NCBI GenBank assembly: GCA_029781975.1
Contig: JAKOVQ010000033.1
Coordinates: forward strand, 124,001-188,000
Direction of reading: 5' to 3'
Source of the DNA: Acidobacteriota bacterium
Lineage (GTDB): Bacteria; Acidobacteriota; Thermoanaerobaculia; UBA5066
Length of the DNA stretch: 64,000 nucleotides
Shown: piece after piece, positions 2,457 through 20,745 of the stretch
How the letters are laid out: each line of letters opens with the position of its first letter
Position numbering within the stretch: the first letter of the stretch is position 1
Notes under the pieces: model-generated
Databases searched by the model: none
What the model saw: the letters and a program-made list of their open reading frames with translations, nothing else
What the model was told of the DNA's origin: nothing
Program-made: the position numbers and the translations under genes

Positions 2457-5400
2457 TCAGCCGTCCCCCTGCCGTCGCGCCGCCGGCACGACCGGGACCT
2501 TCCGGCAGGTGAAGAGCTCGGTCGCGTGGATGCAGAGCTCCGGGTGGTCCTCCCCGGAGTAGTCCACCGAGAAGCCGAGGGACGCGAGGAAGTCGTCGAG
2601 GTCGGTGCCGTAGGCGCGATAGGCGAGGGCCTCGCCCTCGGCGGAATTCGCGTCGCCGTGGTATTCCGGCGGGAGCAGGTCTTCGTCGCGGGTGGGGTCT
2701 TCCGGGACGACCACGCGCCGTCTCACGACCGTTCGGGGCCAGGCCCGGCAATGCGGCACGGTGAAGAGGTACTGGCCTCCGTCCCGCAGCACCCGGTGGA
2801 TCTCCCGGTGCGCGGCGTCGTCGCGGCGGACGTGCTCCATCACGTCGCTCGTGACGACCACGTCGAAGGAGCCGCTCGGGAACGAGAGGGCCTGAAGGTC
2901 CTGGTTCGTGATCCGGGGCCCGTACCGGGTCCCCGGCGGGTCGGACGGCCTGAAGAGCCCGATCTCGAGGTCGATCCAGTCGCAGGCCGCGAGGAGGTCG
3001 GGAATCGGGTAGGCGCACGAAGGCGCCTGGAACGGCCGCTGCGTGTCGAACACGCGGAGCCTCGGGCCGGCGTGCTGCCTCGGAAGCCCTGCGAGGCTGT
3101 CCGCTCGAGGCCCGCCGAGCTCCGCGATCGCCCGGAGGAGCCCGCGCGCGAGGGACCGATACCGGCTCGTCGCCCCGCAGCACCGGCAGACGAGAGATTC
3201 CCGAAGGGTGGACGGGTCGCCGAAGGTGAACTGCGTCGCCTCGCCGCAGGCGCAGCAGCGCCCGACGCGGTGCCCTCCCTGGTAGGCGAACCGCTCGGCT
3301 CGGCGAGGCGCTTCCGGGACGCTCTCGACCGGCCACGGAGGCGTCGCCCCCGGGTCGAGCGCGGCGGCGACCGCCTCGACGCGCGCCGTCCACGAGTTCT
3401 CGACGGCCACCCGGCGAAGGCGGGCCCGGTGGCCGGGGTCCCGCGAGTCGAGACGAGCGGCGTCGAGGGCGGAGGCGAGCTCCTCGCCGTTCCGGACGAT
3501 CCTCACCTCGGGGAAGGCGGCGCACTCCGGCATCGGCGTCGAGATGACGGGCTTGCCCCCCGCGAAGTACTCGAAGAGTTTCAGCGGCGAGGTGGCGTGG
3601 GTGATCTCGTTCACCACGAACGGGATGAAGGCCACGTCGAAGCAGGCCAGGACCGCGGGAATGTCCCGGTACGGCTGCGGCGGAAGGACGAAGACGTTCG
3701 GGAGCCGCTCGAGCTCCTCCAGGGACGGCGCGTCGGCGAGCTGGATCCCGAGGAGGACGAAGCTCCAGTCCGGGCGAAGGCGCGCGGCCGACGCGACGAG
3801 CCCGACGTCGAGCCACGAGGCGATCGCGCCGTAGTAGCCGACGACCGGCCGCCGCGCGTCGAGGACCGGCCGGAGCGCCTCGGGAGCGCCGTCGGAGGCC
3901 GCCGTCTCGAAGTGCTCGACGTCGACGGCGTTCGGGAGGTAGATCGCGTCGGGCCGCGCCCGCCGGCATTCCTCCAGGAGCGGACGCGAGACGCAGGCGA
4001 CGACGCTCGCCTCGCGGAGCATCCGCTCGTGGCTCGCCCGCAGGACCTCCTGGTTGTACGGGAAGACCGCGAGGTCGTCGATGCAGTCGTAGACGATGCG
4101 CCGGGTCGGCCAGGAGTCGACGAGCCCGGCGTTGTACGGCAGCGTCCAGAGGATCGGGGACGGAAGCCCGGTGAGGATCTCGACGGGACCCCGGAACAGG
4201 AGGAGGTTCTTCTCCACCTCCTGGAACCCGCCGAAGCTCTCGGCGGCGCTGTTCGAGCAGTCGAAGACGACGAAGGATCCGCTTCGGGCCAGGGCCCTCG
4301 CGAGGTGGTGGGGGCGCTGGACGAGCGCGATGTTCCACCCGATCGTCGGGAGGAAGACGACGACGCGCGAGGGGTCGGCGCCCGCCTGCGCCATCCGGTG
4401 GGCGAGCTCCTGCCGGAAGGCGGGGACCATCTTCTGCGCCTCGGGCGCGACGTGCGGGAGCCACAGCCCCCACTTCCGCTCGTAACGGGCCTTGTTCCGG
4501 TTGAAGATGTCGAGGTAGCGAGCCTCGCCGAGGGCGCCGAACGAGAGGCGTCCCGCGTGGTGGACGAAAGCGTCGCGGGCGCAGACCGTCCGGAGGCCGA
4601 GCGCCTTCACGCGCCGCGAGTAGTCGTCGTCCTCGAACATCCCGACCTCGAACTGCTCGTCGAGGGGGCCCGTCCGGCTCCAGGTGTCCCGGGTCATGGC
4701 GAGGCAGAACATGGCCAGCATCGCCGTCTCGACGAGCTCGCCGTCGTGCTCCCGCACGAAGGCCGCGGCCCACGCCGGGAGGTCCTCCAGCGAGGAGTAG
4801 CCGACCGGCACCCGCCCCTCGTTCGCGATCTCGTTCGTGGACGGCCCGAGGAGGCCGATCGTCGGGTCGGCGTGAAGGTGGCGGACGAGGGCGGCGAGGG
4901 CGCCGCGGGTCATCACGGTGTCGTTGTTGAGGAGGACGAGGACGTCCCCGGTGGCGAGGGCGAGCCCCTGGTTGTTCGCCGCGGCAAACCCGGCGTTCGT
5001 CTCGTTGAGGACGACGCGGACCCGCCCGTCGCGGGCCGCCTCCTCGCGGAGGAGCTCGGGAGTCCCGTCCGTCGACCCGTTGTCGACCACGATCACCTCG
5101 AGGTTCGGCCAGTCGTTCCGGTCCCTCAGGCTCGCGAGGCACCGCGCGTTCCACTCGCGGTTGTTCCAGGTGACGACCACCACCGAGACCCTCGGGAAGC
5201 ACCCCTCGAGGGCCGGAGCGAGGGCCTCGACGCGGTGAGCCCACGTCTGCTCGCGGGCGAACGCCCGTCTTCGCTCGCGCTCCTCCGGCGTGTCGCCGGA
5301 GAGGGCCGAGAGGACCTCGCGCTCCATCTCCTCGGGGGTCTCGGCGAGGCGCACCAGGTCGCCGAGGGCGACGACCTCGGGGAGGGGGACCGAGACGAGC

Positions 5401-6854
5401 GGGCGTCCCGCCGCGAGGATCTCGTAGGCCTTCACCGGGTTCGTCGCCTCGGTGAGGGGCGTCCGTCGGAACGGGATGAGGAGGACGTCCATCCTCGCGA
5501 TCCACCCGGGGAGGTCCGCGTAAGGGACCTCGCCGGGCATCTCGACGTTCGGGAGCGTCGAGAGCCGCGACGTGTCGGCGGTGTAGGTCGAGCCGACGAG
5601 CAGGAAGCGCCAGTCCGGTCTCCGCTGGGCGAGGTCGGCGACGAGGTCGGAGTCGAACCAGTCCGCGATGGCGCCGTAGTAGCCGATCACGGGGGCCGGC
5701 TTCGACGCCGGGGCCGGGACGGCCGCGAAGGGATCGAAGTCACATGCGTTCGGGACCCGGACGACTCGCCGGGCGAGCGGCGCGGCCTCGCGCTCGAGGA
5801 AGCCGGAGGAGACGACGACGAGGTCGGACCCCGTGAGGAGCTGCCGCTCCCGCGCGAGCATCGCGGGCTCGTTCGTCGAGAAGCCCGCGTGGAAGTCCAT
5901 GCAGTCGTAGACGATCGGCCAGGCGAGGCGGGAGCGGGCCGCCTCGACGAGGGGCGCCCAGAACGGCAGCTGGGCGAAGGAGACCGTCGCCCCGAGCCCC
6001 TCCTGGCGTCGGAGGGCGTCCAGCGACTCGAAGAGGGCGTCGACCTCGCCGGGCGCGAGGTCCTCCCGGTAGACGTTCTTCCGGGGGCCCCGCAGCGAGG
6101 CCTCGTAGACGTTCGCCCGGATCCTCCGGAGCGTGACGGCCGGCCCCTCGGATCTGAAGCTCTGGCTCACGTAGAAGACGCGGTGGCCCCGGTCGGCGAG
6201 CCGGCTCAGCAGCTGCTGGGGGCGCTGGAACCGGAAGTCCCACTCGATGATCGGGAAGCAGACGACGTCGAACGCCGCGCCGCCGGGGAGCGGGTGGGCC
6301 TCCGGATCCGGGGCCTCCGACGGCGGCGCGCTCTGCGCCGCCGGCTGCGTCGCCGCGAGAGGGAGCTCGCGGGGCGGGGCCGGAGGCGGGGTGGTCGGGG
6401 GGACGACGGCGCCGGGAGGCGGTCCCGGCGGTGTCCGGACGAGGCCGAGCGCCCGCAGGAGCCGCCAGTAGGCGGCGCCGAAGCGCCAGAGCCTCGAGCC
6501 GTGGATCCTCTGGAGCTCGGCCCGCAGGTCGTCGCGCTCGCGCGCGAGGGCGGCGAGCACCTCGTCCCTCGACGCGGCGTCCGCCGCCGAGGCCCGGAGC
6601 GCCGCGTCGGGCTCGGCCGCGGGCGCGACGCCCCGGCGGGCCGCCCTTCGCTCCCGCCTCCGTTCCTCCGCCTCTCGCCGGAGCTCGCCCTCGTCTCCCC
6701 TCCTCTCGGCCGCCTCGAGCTCTCGCCGCCGGAGCTGGAGCCGGAGGGCCCGGAGACGAGTCCGGCTGCGCTCCACGTGCTCTCTCAGAGCCTCGAGCTC
6801 GAGGAGCCTCTCGTCCGGCGGGTCCGGGGGCCGTTCGTCTCGCGTCGGGCTCAT
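2457..6854 (-). CDS. four-module enzyme: coiled coil, GT4, GT2, GT4, methyltransferase
   Basis: The protein has 1465 residues. Approximate layout: charged coiled coil 10-115 ending in IHGSRLWRFGAAYWRLLRAL; Pro/Ala linker; GT4-like module 194-550 (QRPQQLLSRLADRGHRVFYV, later ANPVKAYEILAAGRPLVSVP); GT2 module 553-810 (VSVVVVTWNNREW, IVVDNGSTDGTPELL, LLNNDT as the metal-binding site, FEDDDYSRRVK); second GT4-like module 828-1175 (FVVFDCSNS, SPLKLFEYFAGGKPVIST); and a methyltransferase 1188-1465 opening with two CxxC pairs (RCCACGE, CRCCGA) and containing FDVVVTSDVMEHV. It probably adds several sugars to a glycan and methylates a product. The start is the ATG at 6852-6854, overlapping the previous stop by 4 nt. 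The first GT4 module is closely similar to the whole GT encoded just upstream, which suggests duplication and fusion. Substrates cannot be inferred. Confidence 0.88.
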   Translation of the reverse strand: MSPTRDERPPDPPDERLLELEALREHVERSRTRLRALRLQLRRRELEAAERRGDEGELRREAEERRRERRAARRGVAPAAEPDAALRASAADAASRDEVLAALARERDDLRAELQRIHGSRLWRFGAAYWRLLRALGLVRTPPGPPPGAVVPPTTPPPAPPRELPLAATQPAAQSAPPSEAPDPEAHPLPGGAAFDVVCFPIIEWDFRFQRPQQLLSRLADRGHRVFYVSQSFRSEGPAVTLRRIRANVYEASLRGPRKNVYREDLAPGEVDALFESLDALRRQEGLGATVSFAQLPFWAPLVEAARSRLAWPIVYDCMDFHAGFSTNEPAMLARERQLLTGSDLVVVSSGFLEREAAPLARRVVRVPNACDFDPFAAVPAPASKPAPVIGYYGAIADWFDSDLVADLAQRRPDWRFLLVGSTYTADTSRLSTLPNVEMPGEVPYADLPGWIARMDVLLIPFRRTPLTEATNPVKAYEILAAGRPLVSVPLPEVVALGDLVRLAETPEEMEREVLSALSGDTPEERERRRAFAREQTWAHRVEALAPALEGCFPRVSVVVVTWNNREWNARCLASLRDRNDWPNLEVIVVDNGSTDGTPELLREEAARDGRVRVVLNETNAGFAAANNQGLALATGDVLVLLNNDTVMTRGALAALVRHLHADPTIGLLGPSTNEIANEGRVPVGYSSLEDLPAWAAAFVREHDGELVETAMLAMFCLAMTRDTWSRTGPLDEQFEVGMFEDDDYSRRVKALGLRTVCARDAFVHHAGRLSFGALGEARYLDIFNRNKARYERKWGLWLPHVAPEAQKMVPAFRQELAHRMAQAGADPSRVVVFLPTIGWNIALVQRPHHLARALARSGSFVVFDCSNSAAESFGGFQEVEKNLLLFRGPVEILTGLPSPILWTLPYNAGLVDSWPTRRIVYDCIDDLAVFPYNQEVLRASHERMLREASVVACVSRPLLEECRRARPDAIYLPNAVDVEHFETAASDGAPEALRPVLDARRPVVGYYGAIASWLDVGLVASAARLRPDWSFVLLGIQLADAPSLEELERLPNVFVLPPQPYRDIPAVLACFDVAFIPFVVNEITHATSPLKLFEYFAGGKPVISTPMPECAAFPEVRIVRNGEELASALDAARLDSRDPGHRARLRRVAVENSWTARVEAVAAALDPGATPPWPVESVPEAPRRAERFAYQGGHRVGRCCACGEATQFTFGDPSTLRESLVCRCCGATSRYRSLARGLLRAIAELGGPRADSLAGLPRQHAGPRLRVFDTQRPFQAPSCAYPIPDLLAACDWIDLEIGLFRPSDPPGTRYGPRITNQDLQALSFPSGSFDVVVTSDVMEHVRRDDAAHREIHRVLRDGGQYLFTVPHCRAWPRTVVRRRVVVPEDPTRDEDLLPPEYHGDANSAEGEALAYRAYGTDLDDFLASLGFSVDYSGEDHPELCIHATELFTCRKVPVVPAARRQGDG

Positions 6855-8482
6855 GTCCCCTCCCCCGGCCGGGTCGGCCCGGGGTCCTCTCGGTCTCCGA
6901 GGGAGGAGACGAGCTCCTCGAGCTGGAGAGCGCGCGCGTCCCACGAGTTCCGCCGCGCGAACGCGCGGCGGCGCTCCGCGATCGCCGGATCGTCTTCCCG
7001 AAGCGCCTCGTCGATCCGTTCCTCGAACTCCGCCGGCCCGGTGCCGAAACGGACGAGGTCTCCGAACGGCTCGAGCTCCGGGAGCGGAACCGAGACGAGA
7101 GGCCTTCCCGTCGCCATGATCTCGTACGCCTTGACGGGGTTGGCCGCCATCGTGAGCGAGGTCCGCCGGAACGGCAGGATGAAGACGTCGACGCCGTCGA
7201 TCCGGCCGACGAGCTCCCCGTAGGGCACCACCCCCGGGAACGAGACGTTCGGGAGCGCCGGGAGCCGCGTCAGGTCGGCGAGGTACGTCGGGCCGATCAG
7301 GAGGAAGTCCCACTCGGGCCGTCGCTGCGCCACGTCGGCCACGAGGTCCGAATCGAACCAGTCCGCGATGCAGCCGTAGAAGCCCACCGTGGGGCGCGCG
7401 CCCCGGGATCTCCGCGTGACCGTCGAGAAGTACTCCACGTCGCAGCCGTTCGGGACGAGCGTCACCCGCCGGCCGGCGAGACGCGCCCTCGCTTCGAGGG
7501 CCCGCGAGCTGACCACCACGCCGTCGGCGCTCCCCAGGATCCCCCGCTCCACGCCCTCCACCGCCGAGGCGTTCGTCAGGAAGCTCGCGTGGTCGTCCAT
7601 GCAGTCGTAGAGGACCTTCCAGCCGAGGGCGCGCCGCGCCCTCTCAGCCACCGGCCACCAGAACGGCTGATGGACGACCGAGACGGCGGAGGCGATCCCC
7701 TCGCGCTCGCCCAGCATCGCGAGCGACGCGAAGACCGCCTCCGCGTCGGTCGACGTCAGCTCCCCCGAGAAGAGCCTCGCGGCGCTGCCGTGGAGCCGAA
7801 GCGCGTAGACGCGCGGGCGGAGGCGGTGGACCTCGGGCGCTCCCGGGGCCGGCTCGAGGAACTGGCTGACGTAGAAGACGCGGTGCCCCAGGTCCGCCAG
7901 CCGGCTCAGGAGCTGCTGGGGACGCTGGAACAGGAACTCCCACTCCACGATGGAGAAGCAGACGACGTCGGGCAGACCCGGAACGACCGGATCGCGGCGG
8001 AGCCCGAAGGTCCGGGCCGGCGCCTCGACGGGCGGGGGAGCCGCCGACAGCGACGTCCCCGCGAGCACCGGATCCGCCGGGGCGGGGGCCGCCGGCGCGA
8101 GGGGGGGATCGGGCGCCGGCCCGGTCTCTCCTTCGGCCCTCGCCGGGAGGAGGCCGAGCCGGCGAAGGAACCGCCAGTAGAGGTTCCCGAGCCGCCACAC
8201 GCGCGTCGAGCAGACCTCCTGGAGCTTCCTGGCCGCCTCGTCCCTTCCGCGCCGCGCCGCCTCGAGCTCGGCCCGGAGGGTCGCCGTCACCCGGGCCACC
8301 TCGTCGTGAGAGGCGGCGATCGCGGCGCCCGCGTCCCGGAGGCGCTCGGACGTGGCACGGAACGCCGAGGCGAGGGCCTCGTACTCCTCCGAGGCGCGGC
8401 GCAGCTCGAGCGAGGTCTGCAGGAGGTCGGTCTCGAGCGCGGCGATCGTCCTCGCGGGAGAGGTGGGCGCCGGACCGGTCAC
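6851..8482 (-). CDS. coiled-coil GT4-type glycosyltransferase
   Basis: The 543-residue protein has an N-terminal coiled coil (residues ~10-90, AALETDLLQTSLELRRASEE and on) closed by the motif STRVWRLGNLYWRFLRRLG, then a Pro/Ala linker and a GT4-like domain. The domain carries EFLFQRPQQLLSRLADLGHR, LYDCMDDHASF, LVPNGCDVEYF, YGCIADWFDSDLVAD and ANPVKAYEIMATGRPLVSVP, matching the first GT4 module of the next gene almost element by element. I chose the GTG at 8480-8482 because it gives the protein starting TGPAPTSPARTIAALE and lies 13 nt after the wecB stop. Longer frames upstream run antisense-like through wecB. It is likely a cytoplasmic glycosyltransferase of a surface glycan; donor and acceptor are unknown. 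Confidence 0.85.
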   Translation of the reverse strand: MTGPAPTSPARTIAALETDLLQTSLELRRASEEYEALASAFRATSERLRDAGAAIAASHDEVARVTATLRAELEAARRGRDEAARKLQEVCSTRVWRLGNLYWRFLRRLGLLPARAEGETGPAPDPPLAPAAPAPADPVLAGTSLSAAPPPVEAPARTFGLRRDPVVPGLPDVVCFSIVEWEFLFQRPQQLLSRLADLGHRVFYVSQFLEPAPGAPEVHRLRPRVYALRLHGSAARLFSGELTSTDAEAVFASLAMLGEREGIASAVSVVHQPFWWPVAERARRALGWKVLYDCMDDHASFLTNASAVEGVERGILGSADGVVVSSRALEARARLAGRRVTLVPNGCDVEYFSTVTRRSRGARPTVGFYGCIADWFDSDLVADVAQRRPEWDFLLIGPTYLADLTRLPALPNVSFPGVVPYGELVGRIDGVDVFILPFRRTSLTMAANPVKAYEIMATGRPLVSVPLPELEPFGDLVRFGTGPAEFEERIDEALREDDPAIAERRRAFARRNSWDARALQLEELVSSLGDREDPGPTRPGEGT

Positions 8483-14694: not shown

Positions 14695-17600
14695 GTGTCG
14701 GACGCCGAACGGCCGGACCCTCGGCGCCTGCGGGTCGCGGACCTGCTCGGGGAGACTCGCCTCGTCCGCGCGGCGCGCTCCCCCCTGCAGCCCCGGGCCT
14801 CGGTGGTCCTCGACGCCGGGAGCGGTCCGGTGGCAGCGATCGAGCAGACTCTCGGCGACCTCCTCGGACAGACGGTCGCCGACCTCGAGGTCGTCGTCGT
14901 CGACGACGGGCCCGAGGAGGGGCTCTCGCAGTGGCAGGAGGACCTCCACCGCCGGGACAGCCGGCTCGTCTCGATCCGACATGACCGCAGCCTCGGGATC
15001 CCGGCGGTGCGCTTCGACGAGGGGATCGAGGCGGCCCGCGGGCGGTGGATCGCGTTCCTCTCCGCCGGGGCGCGCTGGGAGCCGAAGGCGCTCGAATCGC
15101 TCCTGGCCACGGGAGAGGGTAGCGGGGGCTCCTGCCTCGTCGTGGCCCGGACGCTCGGCGGGGGAGACGGACCCGGGCCGGCGGGAGCACCGCGCGTTCC
15201 GGTCAACGCTCTCACCCTGACCTTCGGCAATCCGGTCGGGCGCACCGGCGCGCTCGTCGAACGGACCCTCCTCGAGCGGTGCGGCGTCTTCGACTGTCAC
15301 CTCTCCCTGGTCCGACTCTTCGATTGGGACCTCTGGCTGCGATTGGCGCAGCGGGCGCCGCTGGCGGTCCTGGAGGACGTCGTGGGCCGCGAGCCCCGGG
15401 GCGTGGCGACCGGCCACGACCCGGCGCAGCTGCCGCCGGCGGTCCGGGCCGGCTTCCGCATCGCCGCCGCGATCCCCCGCGATCACGAGCTGACGCCGCC
15501 GCGCTGGCGGGAGCGGCGACCGCTCGCGGCGGAGCTCGGCGGATTCCCGCTGCCGCCGGGGTATCGCCGGGTGCTCGAGGAGTCGATCGACGGGTGGCTG
15601 CGGGAGCACCACCTCCCCGGCCGGCAGGGGGAGCCGGGGAGTCCCTCGGAGGCCGGGCACGGGCCGGAGCCGCCGGGCGTGACGACCCTCCTGCTGGTGG
15701 GCGACAGCGCCTACCCGGCCCTGGAGCTCTGCTTCCCGCCCCATCCGTCGGCCGCCCCGGACAGCCCGGCGCTGCTGCCCGTCTACGAGCCGGCGGTCCA
15801 GGTCGGCGCCGAGAGCCTGCGATGGTCGGACGGCGTGGTCCTCTTCCGGACCGTCACCGAGCCGGGCTTCCGGGTGCTCGAGAACGCGCAGGCAGCGGGA
15901 CGGCCGGTCGCCTACTTTCTCGACGACGATCTCCTCCACCTCCACCTGCTGGGCCCTCCGTGGGACGTCATGGCCCCGGGAAGCGCTCGCGACCTGGAGC
16001 TCAGGCGTCAGCTCTCGGCCGCCGACGCCGTCTGGTCGACGAGCCCGCGGATCACGGAGGTCGTCGCTCCGCTGAATCCCAGGGTGGTCGCGCACCAGGA
16101 TGCGGTCGACGAGTCGTTTCTCCCCGAGGCGCCGCCTCCGAGGGCGCGGCGCGGAGCCCTTCGGATCGGGGCCGTCGGCTCCGGCTACCAGAAGCTCGAG
16201 TTCTCGGTGATCTGGCCGGCGCTGCTGGAACTGGCGAAGCGATTCGGTCCCGGGATCGAGCTCGAGTTCTGGGGGATCGACGTCGGGGACCTCCCGCCCC
16301 TGGGCGTTCCCGTGACCGCGCGTCCCTACCGGTACGGGTATCGCGGGTTCCTCGCGGACCTCGGTGCCGCACAGTTCGACATCCTGCTCTGTCCCCTCCT
16401 CGACCAGCCCGCGCCGAGACGCGCCAAGTCGCCGAGCGAGTACTTCCACGCCGCTGTCGCCGGCGCGCTCGGGGTCTTCTCGGACGTGGAGCCCTTCGAG
16501 GAGCTCCCCCACGGCCTGACCTGCCTGAAGGTCGCCAACTCGCCGGAGGCCTGGCTCGCGGGGCTGCTCGAGGCCTGCACCATGCCCGCCGAGCGCTTCG
16601 ACACGATGCGCTCGGCGATGCTCGCCCACGTGAAGCGCGAGTACTCCGTGAGGGCGCAGGCGGACCTGCACCATGCCGCGTGGCTCGCGACCGTCTGTCA
16701 CGCCCGGACGCGGACGCGTCGAGGTGCGGACGGACGTCCCGCCATCGCGTTCTGCTGCCTCGGCGAGGGCGCGTGGGACGAGGAGCTCGTGGATGCGGCC
16801 GCCGTCGCCGAGAGGTACGGGATCCGCCCTCTCCTGGTCGGCGAGGAGCGGGTCGGGGTGCCCGCGCGCGCCGCGCGCTTCGGCTATCCCGTCTGGCTCA
16901 GGGGCGGCGAGGGGATGAAGGCCCTCGAGGCCCTCCTGGCGTCGCAGCCGGTGAGCCTCGTCCATGCGACACGCGCCGTCGAGGGGCTGGAGCCGGCCTG
17001 CCGGCGGGTCGGGGTCCCGCTCGTCGTCGGGGCCGGGGCCGAGGCGCGCCTCCGGCGTCCGGGCCGTGTCTCCAGGGAGCTGCTCCAGCGGTACGTGAAC
17101 GCGCTCGCCGAACCCCGGGAGCCGGAGTGCGGTCCTCGCGACGTCGCCGGACCCGGCTCCGCCGAGACCCCCCCCCCCGCGGGAGGTCCGGCTGCCACGC
17201 CGACGACCGCACCTGCCGTCGGCCCGGCCGGGGCGCCGCGCGACGAGGCCGCGCACGCGCTCCGGCGGGGCGGCCTGCTGCGGTCTCTCGCCCGAGCCCG
17301 GTGGATCGTGAAACGAAAGCCCGTGCTCGTCGTGTTCGACACCGATCTCGTTTCCGTGGACCTCTGCTTCCGGTCGGTCCGCGGCGCCCTCGAGAGAGCG
17401 ACCGGGCGGGACTGGGTCCTCCGTCCCGCCGGCGAGGTGAGCGCCCAAGACCTCCGCTCGGCCCGTGCCGTCTTCTTTTCCCGGGCGCTCTCCCGCCGCT
17501 CGGTCGACCTGATGGAGGCGGCCAGGAAGGCCGGCTGCCCGACGGTTTACGACGCCGACGACAACCTGCTCCTCATCGACCAGCTGATCGCCGACCCCGA

Positions 17601-18324
17601 GAACCCCTGGCGGCGGGTGTTCGGGGAGGCGAGGACGGAGATCGAGGCGCTGACCCGGGGGGCCGATCTCGTCAAGGTCTACTCGCGAAGCGCGGTGCCG
17701 ATCTTCGAGCGCCTCAACCGGAACGTCGTCTGCATCAGGCCTCCGCGGCCGCCGGTGGAGCCGGGGGTCGAGCCCCTGACGGTCGCCGCCCCGGCCCGCT
17801 TCGGGTTCTTCGGCAGCGCCTACAAGGACGACGAGTTCCCGGCCGTGGCCGCCGCCGTCGAGCGGCTGGTGCGGGCAGGAGGCGGTCCTGGCTTCGAGGT
17901 CGTCGGCTTCGTGCCGCGACCGCTCGCGCAGGTGCCGGGCGTCCGCTGGTTCCCGTGGCGATCCCGGTATCCCGAGTTCCGCCGTTTCCTGGCCACCCGC
18001 GGCTGGGCCGCGGGGCTCGCTCCCCTGCGCGACACCGAGTTCAACCGCTGCAAGGCCGCCGCGAAGTACCTCGAGTACGCCTCGCTCGGGATCGCCGGCA
18101 TCTACTCCGACGTCCCGACCTATCGCGAGGCCGTGAGCCACCGGATCACCGGCCTGCTCGTGGAGCACGAACGGCCCGAGGCCTGGGAGGAGGCGATCGA
18201 CCTCCTCGTGCGGGATCCCGAGCTCGCGCGCGGGATCGTCCAGCGCTCGCGCGAGGACCTGCTCGCCAGCTACTCGCCGGAGCGCTACGCGGAGGAGGTG
18301 GCCAGCCTCCTCCGCCACGCCTGA
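14695..18324 (+). CDS. multi-module glycosyltransferase (degenerate GT2 plus GT4-like modules)
   Basis: The protein has 1209 residues. Residues ~35-240 form a GT2-like domain (ASVVLDAGSG, LEVVVVDDGPEEG, DWDLWLRLA), but where active GT2 enzymes have a DxD/DDD metal site before W-x-P this one reads IAFLSAGARWEPKAL, so it may be inactive. Residues ~340-680 form a GT4-like module (VAYFLDDDLLHLHLL, RAKSPSEYFHAAVAGALGVF). Residues ~680-815 hold a smaller alpha/beta stretch. After a Pro/Ala linker encoded across a run of 11 C, residues ~865-1205 form a second GT4-like module (CPTVYDADDNLLLID, FGFFGSAYKDDEF, CKAAAKYLEYASLGIAGIYS). The GTG start directly follows the aminotransferase stop. The gene converges on a GT4 gene with only 4 nt between stops. 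Likely role: glycan assembly, donors unknown. Confidence 0.85.
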   Translation: MSDAERPDPRRLRVADLLGETRLVRAARSPLQPRASVVLDAGSGPVAAIEQTLGDLLGQTVADLEVVVVDDGPEEGLSQWQEDLHRRDSRLVSIRHDRSLGIPAVRFDEGIEAARGRWIAFLSAGARWEPKALESLLATGEGSGGSCLVVARTLGGGDGPGPAGAPRVPVNALTLTFGNPVGRTGALVERTLLERCGVFDCHLSLVRLFDWDLWLRLAQRAPLAVLEDVVGREPRGVATGHDPAQLPPAVRAGFRIAAAIPRDHELTPPRWRERRPLAAELGGFPLPPGYRRVLEESIDGWLREHHLPGRQGEPGSPSEAGHGPEPPGVTTLLLVGDSAYPALELCFPPHPSAAPDSPALLPVYEPAVQVGAESLRWSDGVVLFRTVTEPGFRVLENAQAAGRPVAYFLDDDLLHLHLLGPPWDVMAPGSARDLELRRQLSAADAVWSTSPRITEVVAPLNPRVVAHQDAVDESFLPEAPPPRARRGALRIGAVGSGYQKLEFSVIWPALLELAKRFGPGIELEFWGIDVGDLPPLGVPVTARPYRYGYRGFLADLGAAQFDILLCPLLDQPAPRRAKSPSEYFHAAVAGALGVFSDVEPFEELPHGLTCLKVANSPEAWLAGLLEACTMPAERFDTMRSAMLAHVKREYSVRAQADLHHAAWLATVCHARTRTRRGADGRPAIAFCCLGEGAWDEELVDAAAVAERYGIRPLLVGEERVGVPARAARFGYPVWLRGGEGMKALEALLASQPVSLVHATRAVEGLEPACRRVGVPLVVGAGAEARLRRPGRVSRELLQRYVNALAEPREPECGPRDVAGPGSAETPPPAGGPAATPTTAPAVGPAGAPRDEAAHALRRGGLLRSLARARWIVKRKPVLVVFDTDLVSVDLCFRSVRGALERATGRDWVLRPAGEVSAQDLRSARAVFFSRALSRRSVDLMEAARKAGCPTVYDADDNLLLIDQLIADPENPWRRVFGEARTEIEALTRGADLVKVYSRSAVPIFERLNRNVVCIRPPRPPVEPGVEPLTVAAPARFGFFGSAYKDDEFPAVAAAVERLVRAGGGPGFEVVGFVPRPLAQVPGVRWFPWRSRYPEFRRFLATRGWAAGLAPLRDTEFNRCKAAAKYLEYASLGIAGIYSDVPTYREAVSHRITGLLVEHERPEAWEEAIDLLVRDPELARGIVQRSREDLLASYSPERYAEEVASLLRHA
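17168..17178 (+). repeat. homopolymer run of 11 C inside the multi-GT gene
   Basis: Eleven consecutive C residues lie in the coding strand at codons ~825-828, encoding the prolines of an inter-domain linker. It is the longest mononucleotide run I found. Slippage would separate the last GT4-like module from the rest. Confidence 0.9.
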
Positions 18325-18328
18325 CCGG

Positions 18329-19645
18329 TCAGGACCCGGTCGGCGGGATCCCCGCGCGGAAGAGGACCTCGCGTGCCAGGAGCGGGGCCAGCCGCCGACG
18401 CCCCGCGACGCAGCCTGCCGCGGCTCCGGGGCGAGCGTCGAGCACGTCCTCGTAGATCCGGCCGATGGCCGTGGCCGTGCTCCTCGCGTCGAAGGAGGCT
18501 GCCCGGCGCGCGGCGGCCTCGCCGATCCGGCGGGCGCGCTCCCGGTCGCCGAGCAGGCTGGCCAGCGCCCGCGCGAGGGCGGGAGGATCGGCCGGCGGCA
18601 CGAGCAGCCCGGAGACGCCGTCCTCGAGGACCTCCTCGGGGCCCCCGCAGCGCGTGGCGACGACCGGGCGGGCCGCCGCAGCGGCCTCCAGGACCCCGAG
18701 TCCGAAGCCTTCCGAGAGGGACGGCTGAACGACCACCTCGGCGGCGCGCAGGAGCGACAGGGGATCGGGAAGGGCGCCGGGGAGCGAGACGCGATCGGCC
18801 AGGCCGTGGCGCGACAGCGCCTCGACGATGGCCCGGACGTACTCCTCGTCGTTGTGACCGCCCGCGAGGACGAGGCAAAGGTCGGGAAAGCGACCAGCCA
18901 GCGAGGCGAAGGCGTCCACGAGGTCCAGCTGGCCCTTGCGGCGTTGCAGCCCCCCCAGCGAGGCCACGACCCGCGCGGTCGGGGGAAGGCCGAGCCGGCG
19001 CAGCAGCGCCTCGCGCCCGACCGCGGGCGAGGCGAGGAAGCCCGCGAGGTCGAACCCGTCGTGGACCACGTGGCGGGGCGCGAGAGCGCAATACCGGTCG
19101 GCCTGGGCCTGCACGGTTCGCGAGACGCAGATCACCCCGTCGGAGAGGAGGTCGACGACGCCGAAGATGAACTCGAGGTCGGAGAAGAACGGCGGCGGGA
19201 AGCCGGTGTCGAGAAGGCCCCGGCTGTGCCAGAGATGGGGGATTCCCAGGCGCGCGGCGGCGAGGGCGCCCTCGAGCGTCACCAGCGTGTTGGTGTGGAC
19301 GAGCGCGACCCTCTCCGTCAGCAGCCAGTCGGCGATCCGGTCGGTCCGCTCCTCGAGCCCGGCGAGCTGGGCGATGAAAGTGGCCGGAGACCAGTGCGTC
19401 GCAGGCATCCACCAGGCCGTCGGCAGGATCGCGAGGTCGACGCCCCGCGCGGCGAGGCTCTCCCGCAAGGGCCCGTCCGCGGGCAGCACCACCGTCGCGC
19501 GGAAGCGCTCCGGGTCGAGGCCCTCGACGAGCCGGACGATCGCCAGCTCGCTTCCGGCCATCGAGGAGTGGGAGACGATCGCGACGCGGGCGGGGTCTCC
19601 CCCCGGTGCTCCCCGCCGCGGCCCCTGAGCGACGGCGCCGGTCAT
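18329..19645 (-). CDS. GT4 family glycosyltransferase
   Basis: This 438-residue GT-B enzyme is close to textbook GT4: VAIVSHSSMAGSELAIVRLV at the N-terminus, HTNTLVTLEGALAAARLG, CVSRTVQAQADRY, VVASLGGLQRRKGQLDLVDAF, and the donor-site EX7E motif in PSLSEGFGLGVLEAAAAARP. It moves a sugar from an NDP donor to a growing glycan in the cytoplasm; the sugar is unknown. The ATG at 19643-19645 overlaps the stop of the upstream GT gene by 4 nt, so the two form a coupled pair. Confidence 0.9.
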   Translation of the reverse strand: MTGAVAQGPRRGAPGGDPARVAIVSHSSMAGSELAIVRLVEGLDPERFRATVVLPADGPLRESLAARGVDLAILPTAWWMPATHWSPATFIAQLAGLEERTDRIADWLLTERVALVHTNTLVTLEGALAAARLGIPHLWHSRGLLDTGFPPPFFSDLEFIFGVVDLLSDGVICVSRTVQAQADRYCALAPRHVVHDGFDLAGFLASPAVGREALLRRLGLPPTARVVASLGGLQRRKGQLDLVDAFASLAGRFPDLCLVLAGGHNDEEYVRAIVEALSRHGLADRVSLPGALPDPLSLLRAAEVVVQPSLSEGFGLGVLEAAAAARPVVATRCGGPEEVLEDGVSGLLVPPADPPALARALASLLGDRERARRIGEAAARRAASFDARSTATAIGRIYEDVLDARPGAAAGCVAGRRRLAPLLAREVLFRAGIPPTGS

Positions 19646-20745
19646 CCGCGCGCCGACACCGCGGCCGTGGTCCTCGAGAGCATCCGGGCGAAGGCAGGAA
19701 TCGCTCCCGCAACCGAGAACCGCTCCTCTACCACCCGGCGGGCCGATCGGACGATCCGTTCCCTCAGGTCGGAGTCGACGAGGAGTCGGCCGATCTCAGC
19801 CTGCCAGGCCTCGACCGAGTTGTCGGCGAGGAGCCCGTCGGCTCCGTGGCGTACCAGCCCGGAGTACGGAGGGACGGCGGAGTAGACGCCGGGGACCCCG
19901 GCGGCGGTCGCGTCGAGGAACTTGAGTGGGCACTTCGAGGCGGAGAACCGCGTGGCGTCGAGAGGCGCCACGAGGACGGTCGGACGGAGGGCGGCGAGGC
20001 GCGCCGCGTAGTCGGCCATGCTCGCCCGGAACGGCTCGAAGCGCACCCGGCCGGGCGGGAGGGAGGCGAGCTCGCCCGGGACCTCGTGCCCCATCACCAG
20101 GACCTGCAGCTCCGGCCACCCTGCGGCCAGCCGAGCCATCGCCGCGAAGGCGCTGGGCTCGAAACGCGGGGAGCCGGCATAGCCGACCGAGAGCCCGAGC
20201 TCCGGAGCGCGGGACGGGTCACCGCCGAACCGCCCCATGTCGAAGGGGATCGGGAGGACCTCGACCGAACGGCTCAAGGGGCGGAGGTCCTCGGCGAGGA
20301 CGGCGTTGAAGACGACCGTGGCGTCCGCGTCGCGCACGCACGCGAGGAAGCTCTCGTAGTCGGGTCGGCCGGGGAGGAAGAGGGCTGAATACCGCGCGTA
20401 CTCCCTCCCGGCGGCGATCCAGTTGTCGTCGATCATCACGATCGTGGGCCGTCCGGAGGCCTTCCGGGCAGCCACGACCTCGGGCGCCGCGGGGAAGCGG
20501 GGGCGGCAGAGGATGACGAGCTCCTCGGCCGCCAGGGCCTCCACGGGCTCGTCGTAGCTCGCGCAGCGCCAGGTGCCGGCCTGCCGCGGGTACAGTCCGT
20601 CCAGGAGCGGCCGCAGGAAGATCTCGACGTGGTGGACGTCCCCCGGGGCATGGACCACCGCGATCCGCTCGGGAAGGCGTTCGCCCGCGACCGGCCTTCC
20701 CGCCCGCCCGAAGGCGCTCCCCGGAAGAGCGAACCGACGATTCAT
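19642..20745 (-). CDS. GT4/CgeB-like glycosyltransferase
   Basis: The 367-residue protein has the layout of Glyco_trans_1_4 enzymes: ERIAVVHAPGDVHHVEIFL, ELVILCRPRFPAAPEVVAAR, PTIVMIDDNWIAAGREYA, VEVLPIPFDMGRF, LSVGYAGSPRFEPSAF and KCPLKFLDATAAGVPGVYS in the donor-binding region. The MIDDNW element recurs as YDADDN and YFLDDD in the multi-GT protein at 14695-18324, so these modules are related. The start is ATG at 20743-20745 with a poor ribosome binding site. Its upstream region lies next to two hairpins that should isolate it from the SLH-protein gene. Confidence 0.8.
   Translation of the reverse strand: MNRRFALPGSAFGRAGRPVAGERLPERIAVVHAPGDVHHVEIFLRPLLDGLYPRQAGTWRCASYDEPVEALAAEELVILCRPRFPAAPEVVAARKASGRPTIVMIDDNWIAAGREYARYSALFLPGRPDYESFLACVRDADATVVFNAVLAEDLRPLSRSVEVLPIPFDMGRFGGDPSRAPELGLSVGYAGSPRFEPSAFAAMARLAAGWPELQVLVMGHEVPGELASLPPGRVRFEPFRASMADYAARLAALRPTVLVAPLDATRFSASKCPLKFLDATAAGVPGVYSAVPPYSGLVRHGADGLLADNSVEAWQAEIGRLLVDSDLRERIVRSARRVVEERFSVAGAIPAFARMLSRTTAAVSARG

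Follow-up and report, generated by a model that had tools for sequence, protein, structure and literature searches.

A run of eleven cytosines in a glycosyltransferase gene of a GC-rich Acidobacteriota genome is probably a product of composition rather than a maintained phase-variation switch

Introduction

Does a run of eleven cytosines inside a glycosyltransferase gene of a GC-rich bacterium mark a switch of its surface glycan, or is such a run simply what the composition of the genome delivers? Poly-G/C contingency loci are known with glycan examples in Neisseria and Campylobacter, and an earlier note on this DNA had proposed phase variation at the run. We examined the tract within its window (the whole stretch of 64,000 bases that was analysed, located on contig C6), within the genome that carries it (a 5.37 Mb draft in 54 contigs with 73% GC) and in genomes of the same family and class. 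A literature search on phase-variable glycosyltransferases in Acidobacteriota found none, one on homopolymer phase variation in Acidobacteria listed two papers, and a broader listing held no paper on this lineage by title.

Results

The host gene and its neighbourhood

The tract lies in a gene at 14695-18324 (+ strand, as are all its parts below) which, on the evidence of its ORF, coding frame and Pfam matches, encodes a multi-module glycosyltransferase (GT) of 1209 aa and has a GTG start immediately 3' of the stop of an upstream aminotransferase ORF. A GT2 domain (PF00535, residues 48-155, positions 14836-15159, E 9.8e-13) is followed by a middle GT4-like module from residue 331 (15685-16557) and a last GT4-like module from residue 877 (17323-18321; PF00534, E 2.2e-7; PF13692, E 1.1e-6). 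PF00535, PF00534 and PF13692 each exceed the curated cut-off and fall in one reading frame, which places the protein among the multi-module GT2/GT4 enzymes. The middle module, for which the Pfam search gave no match of its own, was recognized by its homology to the last (30% identity over approximately 305 aligned positions in a pairwise comparison), and a stand-alone neighbour at 19642-20745 resembles the last module in the same kind of comparison.

The surrounding cluster holds a UDP-GlcNAc 2-epimerase, a polysaccharide pyruvyl transferase, a DegT aminotransferase, many GTs and an SLH-domain protein. Together with the GT2 and GT4 matches within the protein, these neighbours support the GT context that the earlier note had assigned to the tract. 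As in the multi-module GT2/GT4 proteins of surface polysaccharide clusters, Glycos_transf_2 and Glycos_transf_1 are combined in one protein, and epimerase, pyruvyl transferase and aminotransferase genes lie nearby. The three-module protein had no end-to-end match in 39 other genomes (13 of the same family, none congeneric); matches beyond its own genome were to single modules, the best being approximately 32-45% identical. A search of a wider genome-contig collection found no homologue of the protein, and a search of solved structures gave none at E ≤ 0.01. Of the 80 MnmG matches kept from that collection, the closest (68% identity) belongs to an 'uncultured Acidobacteria' MAG and the rest are at 50% or lower, which makes an acidobacterial origin of the genome probable. 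Elsewhere in the window, a 1618-aa protein at 2457-7313 (- strand) combines GT4, GT2 and methyltransferase domains, with a linker containing a stretch of 30 residues of which 14 are Pro.

Position of the tract and consequences of an indel

C11 occupies positions 17168-17178 on the + strand, and no longer homopolymer occurs in the window, where two runs of G8 come next and then runs of 7; the coordinates, the length and the ranking (the longest, with the next at about 8) match those of the earlier note exactly. The codons ACC CCC CCC CCC GCG encode T-P-P-P-A at residues 825-829, the tract itself falling in the T-P-P-P codons (residues 825-828), within a Pro/Ala/Gly-rich linker at 17110-17304 whose limits, set by composition, are approximate. 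Pro, Ala and Gly make up 65% of residues 821-860, and the tract is approximately 49 residues N-terminal to the start of homology in the last module; composition and pairwise module alignment thus confirm a linker ahead of the last GT4-like module. A single coding frame was found on either side of the tract (GC3 0.85-0.96), with the best codon score in the same frame to left and right.

Translation of the altered frames showed that loss of one C gives 827 residues plus 43 more (870 aa), ending at a TGA at 17309-17311 (+), whilst gain of one C gives 828 residues plus 424 out-of-frame residues, ending at a stop at 18453-18455 (+). Either indel removes the last module and keeps the GT2 and middle modules, so the mechanical part of the earlier proposal, that gain or loss of a single C removes the terminal GT module, is right. 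The codons from which translation of the last module might be rescued were listed with their preceding bases, and by eye none had an evident ribosome-binding site.

C11 is thus a long homopolymer in which indels shift the frame, as is expected of a contingency locus. Under that explanation, slipped-strand mispairing at the tract would reversibly add or remove the last GT module and thereby alter the surface glycan. The length of the tract, the GT gene and glycan cluster in which it sits and the frameshift that drops the last module all favour phase variation, but the run comes late in the gene, inside a linker, and the truncation spares the GT2 and middle modules. A long in-frame homopolymer, and an 870-aa product that ends soon after the tract upon a one-base loss, would also suit transcriptional or translational slippage on the C run, by which full-length and truncated protein would be made from one DNA sequence; the best-known cases of such slippage involve A/T runs, and we regard it as very improbable here.

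G/C runs in relation to genome composition

Runs were counted by matching 7, 8 and 9 Cs against each strand and then subtracting (for runs of at least 7, 2017 minus 392). The genome contains 1625 G/C runs of at least 7, 328 of at least 8, 45 of at least 9, nine of at least 10, five of at least 11 and three of at least 12, and the longest is 14. The five runs of at least 11 rule out the possibility that a run of this length is unique to the GT locus. Markov models were fitted on the 64-kb window rather than on the whole genome, with the second order following the choice made for Bordetella in PMC1891110. The second-order expectation was 105 runs of at least 9, 29 of at least 10, 7.8 of at least 11 and 2.1 of at least 12, giving observed/expected ratios of 0.43, 0.31, 0.64 and 1.4, respectively. 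At lengths of at least 11 the ratio was 0.15, 0.64, 0.61 and 1.32 for Markov orders 1 to 4, and the fourth-order model gave 3.2 at lengths of at least 12, which points to a possible slight excess in the far tail.

Synonymous codons were also resampled in 18 window genes (45 kb, 2000 sets). A run of at least 11 arose in 630 of the 2000 sets (32%), and within the 14695-18324 gene itself in 78 of 2000; coding runs of 5-9 were fewer than this resampling expects. Long G/C runs in this genome are, if anything, avoided rather than in excess. Contingency tracts should be longer or commoner than composition predicts, whereas here five runs of at least 11 stand against an expected 7.8, and lengths of at least 12 are borderline. 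Since long runs are not in excess, C11 requires no special cause, and this lack of excess is evidence against phase variation. In part of the text of PMC2831843, poly-G/C runs are described as generally underrepresented across the 99 genomes studied there. The portion of PMC1891110 consulted for Bordetella reports an excess of C/G runs longer than 8 over expectation, and differences between three species at 74% of the 69 loci selected there; in contrast to that account, runs of at least 9 to at least 11 fall below model expectation here.

Other long runs in the genome

We inspected each of the nine runs of at least 10 and each of the 36 that are exactly 9 long. Besides the GT tract, the runs of at least 11 comprise a C11 in tpiA, G12 at loci L052 and L058, and G14 at L053. 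The tpiA run (L054:3262-3272; C24:182261-182271) is an in-frame C11 in a Pro-rich stretch of a gene with a TIM match at E 7.8e-82. Its presence in a housekeeping gene counts against phase variation as the reason for such a tract, and with the lack of excess it leaves unsupported a view of the GT tract as exceptional for the genome or as a marker of a contingency locus. An apparent frame change at L054 was dismissed, since the sequence to its left belongs to the end of the preceding gene and tpiA itself is uninterrupted. The tpiA run is a useful internal control for slippage.

At L052:3192-3203 (C8:6391-6402) a sense-strand G12 lies exactly at a frame change from a methyltransferase to a DUF4214 match, both Pfam-supported; this frame break is a candidate for either a genuine OFF state or an error in the homopolymer count, and so lends itself to phase variation and to miscounting alike. 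The G14 at L053:3247-3260 (C14:79246-79259), the longest in the genome, encodes poly-Gly near the N-terminus of a methyltransferase and is in frame provided that translation begins at the upstream ATG. The G12 at L058:3168-3179 (C37:56767-56778) coincides with, or slightly precedes, the start of a methyltransferase gene, beside a gene judged by eye to be GT2-like, with GT matches nearby at C37:58400-63887.

The runs of 10 fall at a cNMP-binding/TPR protein, the start of a Ser/Thr kinase, a secretin and one site with no Pfam match. ORFs at runs of 9, for which 40 ORFs were searched against Pfam for the 36 tracts, include MnmG, fumarase, MutL, ValRS, PBP2, RibD and a MoaA-like protein, and further runs of 9 lie at the Obg/cytidylyltransferase and S10/L3 junctions. 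A GT or methyltransferase family covers the tract in two of the 36 (GT2 at L083, Methyltransf_20 at L070). L087, a further run of 9 flanked by a methyltransferase ORF and a chaperonin gene, is not included in that count. The G9 within mutL (L069:2446-2454) concerns a mismatch repair gene, and slippage there could raise homopolymer instability genome-wide.

GT or methyltransferase genes thus hold, within them or at their start, four of the five runs of at least 11 vs two of the 40 runs of 9-10 (Fisher p 0.0005, with the grouping made post hoc). The p value is 0.003 without the GT tract that was given at the outset, 0.007 without counting L058 and 0.036 without both, against a genome-wide background of 61 Methyltransf_25 and 32 Glyco_trans_1_4 matches. 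This four-of-five share favours phase variation, for which concentration in surface-structure genes would be expected, although the numbers are small, the grouping is post hoc and one of the five runs is in tpiA. The clustering is predicted by a small phase-variable set and also by relaxed constraint, and a methyltransferase domain is no proof of glycan function.

The same runs bear on whether the tract was miscounted in sequencing or assembly, the true run having another in-frame length (C8 or C14), or the population being mixed and the assembler having chosen C11. A warning in the part of PMC9187656 drawn upon, that recorded G-tract lengths may differ from true ones, fits a miscount, as does the frame break at the L052 G12. 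Against this, C11 preserves one coding frame across the GT gene, and 24 of the 36 runs of 9 are flanked on either side by clear coding signal that stays in frame (all 24 of the interior coding runs). Three further runs of 9 resemble gene junctions, as which the frame changes at L075, L082 and L086 were read, and there was no intragenic break. G/C runs of 9 are therefore not a general weakness of the assembly, and we consider a miscount of the GT tract quite improbable.

Genomes of the same family and class

In the 13 same-family genomes 43 runs of at least 11 were listed; 10 at contig starts were excluded and 33 examined. One, in a response regulator gene (L097), sits within a single coding frame whose signal is present to its left and right; for most of the 33, coding signal is missing on at least one side, as judged with a codon model trained on the organism of the window, which may weaken coding calls in these genomes. 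Tracts so placed argue against phase variation, and the position of several same-family runs of at least 11 at contig ends is compatible with miscounting. At one C11 (L102:1563-1573) the frame of a ketoacyl-synthase (PKS-like) gene changes. Pfam, run on 10 of the 27 flanking ORFs, matched a methyltransferase once (L108) and a GT in none. Very long or clustered poly-C was also seen in two same-class genomes (G028, C7:156027-156192; G024, C10:725931 onward), with others at contig ends; these stretches may be real arrays or assembly artefacts.

Discussion

We consider it probable that C11 is a composition-driven run in an unconstrained linker which is prone to slippage and is not a maintained regulatory switch. 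At a GC content of 73%, three Pro codons and the preceding Thr codon would simply happen to be CCC and ACC, in a Pro/Ala/Gly linker that appears free of constraint between two homologous GT modules of one putative surface-glycan glycosyltransferase. From precedent, C11 would slip in replication more than average sequence, and a minority of cells may carry versions of the protein without the last module. The excerpted text of PMC9187656 describes mixed G11/G12 populations for G-tract pilus genes of Bifidobacterium breve; by analogy, the C11 tract probably slips here as well, and the same precedent speaks for phase variation. Slipping is distinct from a maintained switch, and the absence of evidence for one suggests that this slippage is not maintained as regulation.

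So far as the B. breve pilus contingency loci are described in that source, they share with this locus an intragenic G/C run of 10-12, a frame-changing indel and a surface-structure context. They differ in that the run here is in a late linker, that truncation spares the GT2 and middle modules and that the genome holds no excess of such runs. The earlier reading as phase variation therefore stands in part: the tract and its coordinates, the linker, the GT context and the effect of an indel hold, whereas an exceptional tract and a contingency-locus marker are not supported. Taking both sides together, we judge a phase-variable contingency locus at C11 to be unlikely. A broader version, in which a small set of G/C tracts of 11-14 stochastically switches surface-glycan GTs and methyltransferases, with the GT C11 as an ON state and the L052 G12 as an OFF state, and in which the GT switch would remove one module and so edit the glycan rather than silence the enzyme, is likewise doubtful.

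If switching were true, it would bring a very GC-rich, uncultivated lineage into the known range of homopolymer phase variation and would represent module-level editing of a glycan-building enzyme. If, as we think probable, there is no switch, the locus is a caution for the interpretation of such tracts, because a C11 would be expected several times in a genome of 73% GC and may be harmless even in a housekeeping gene.
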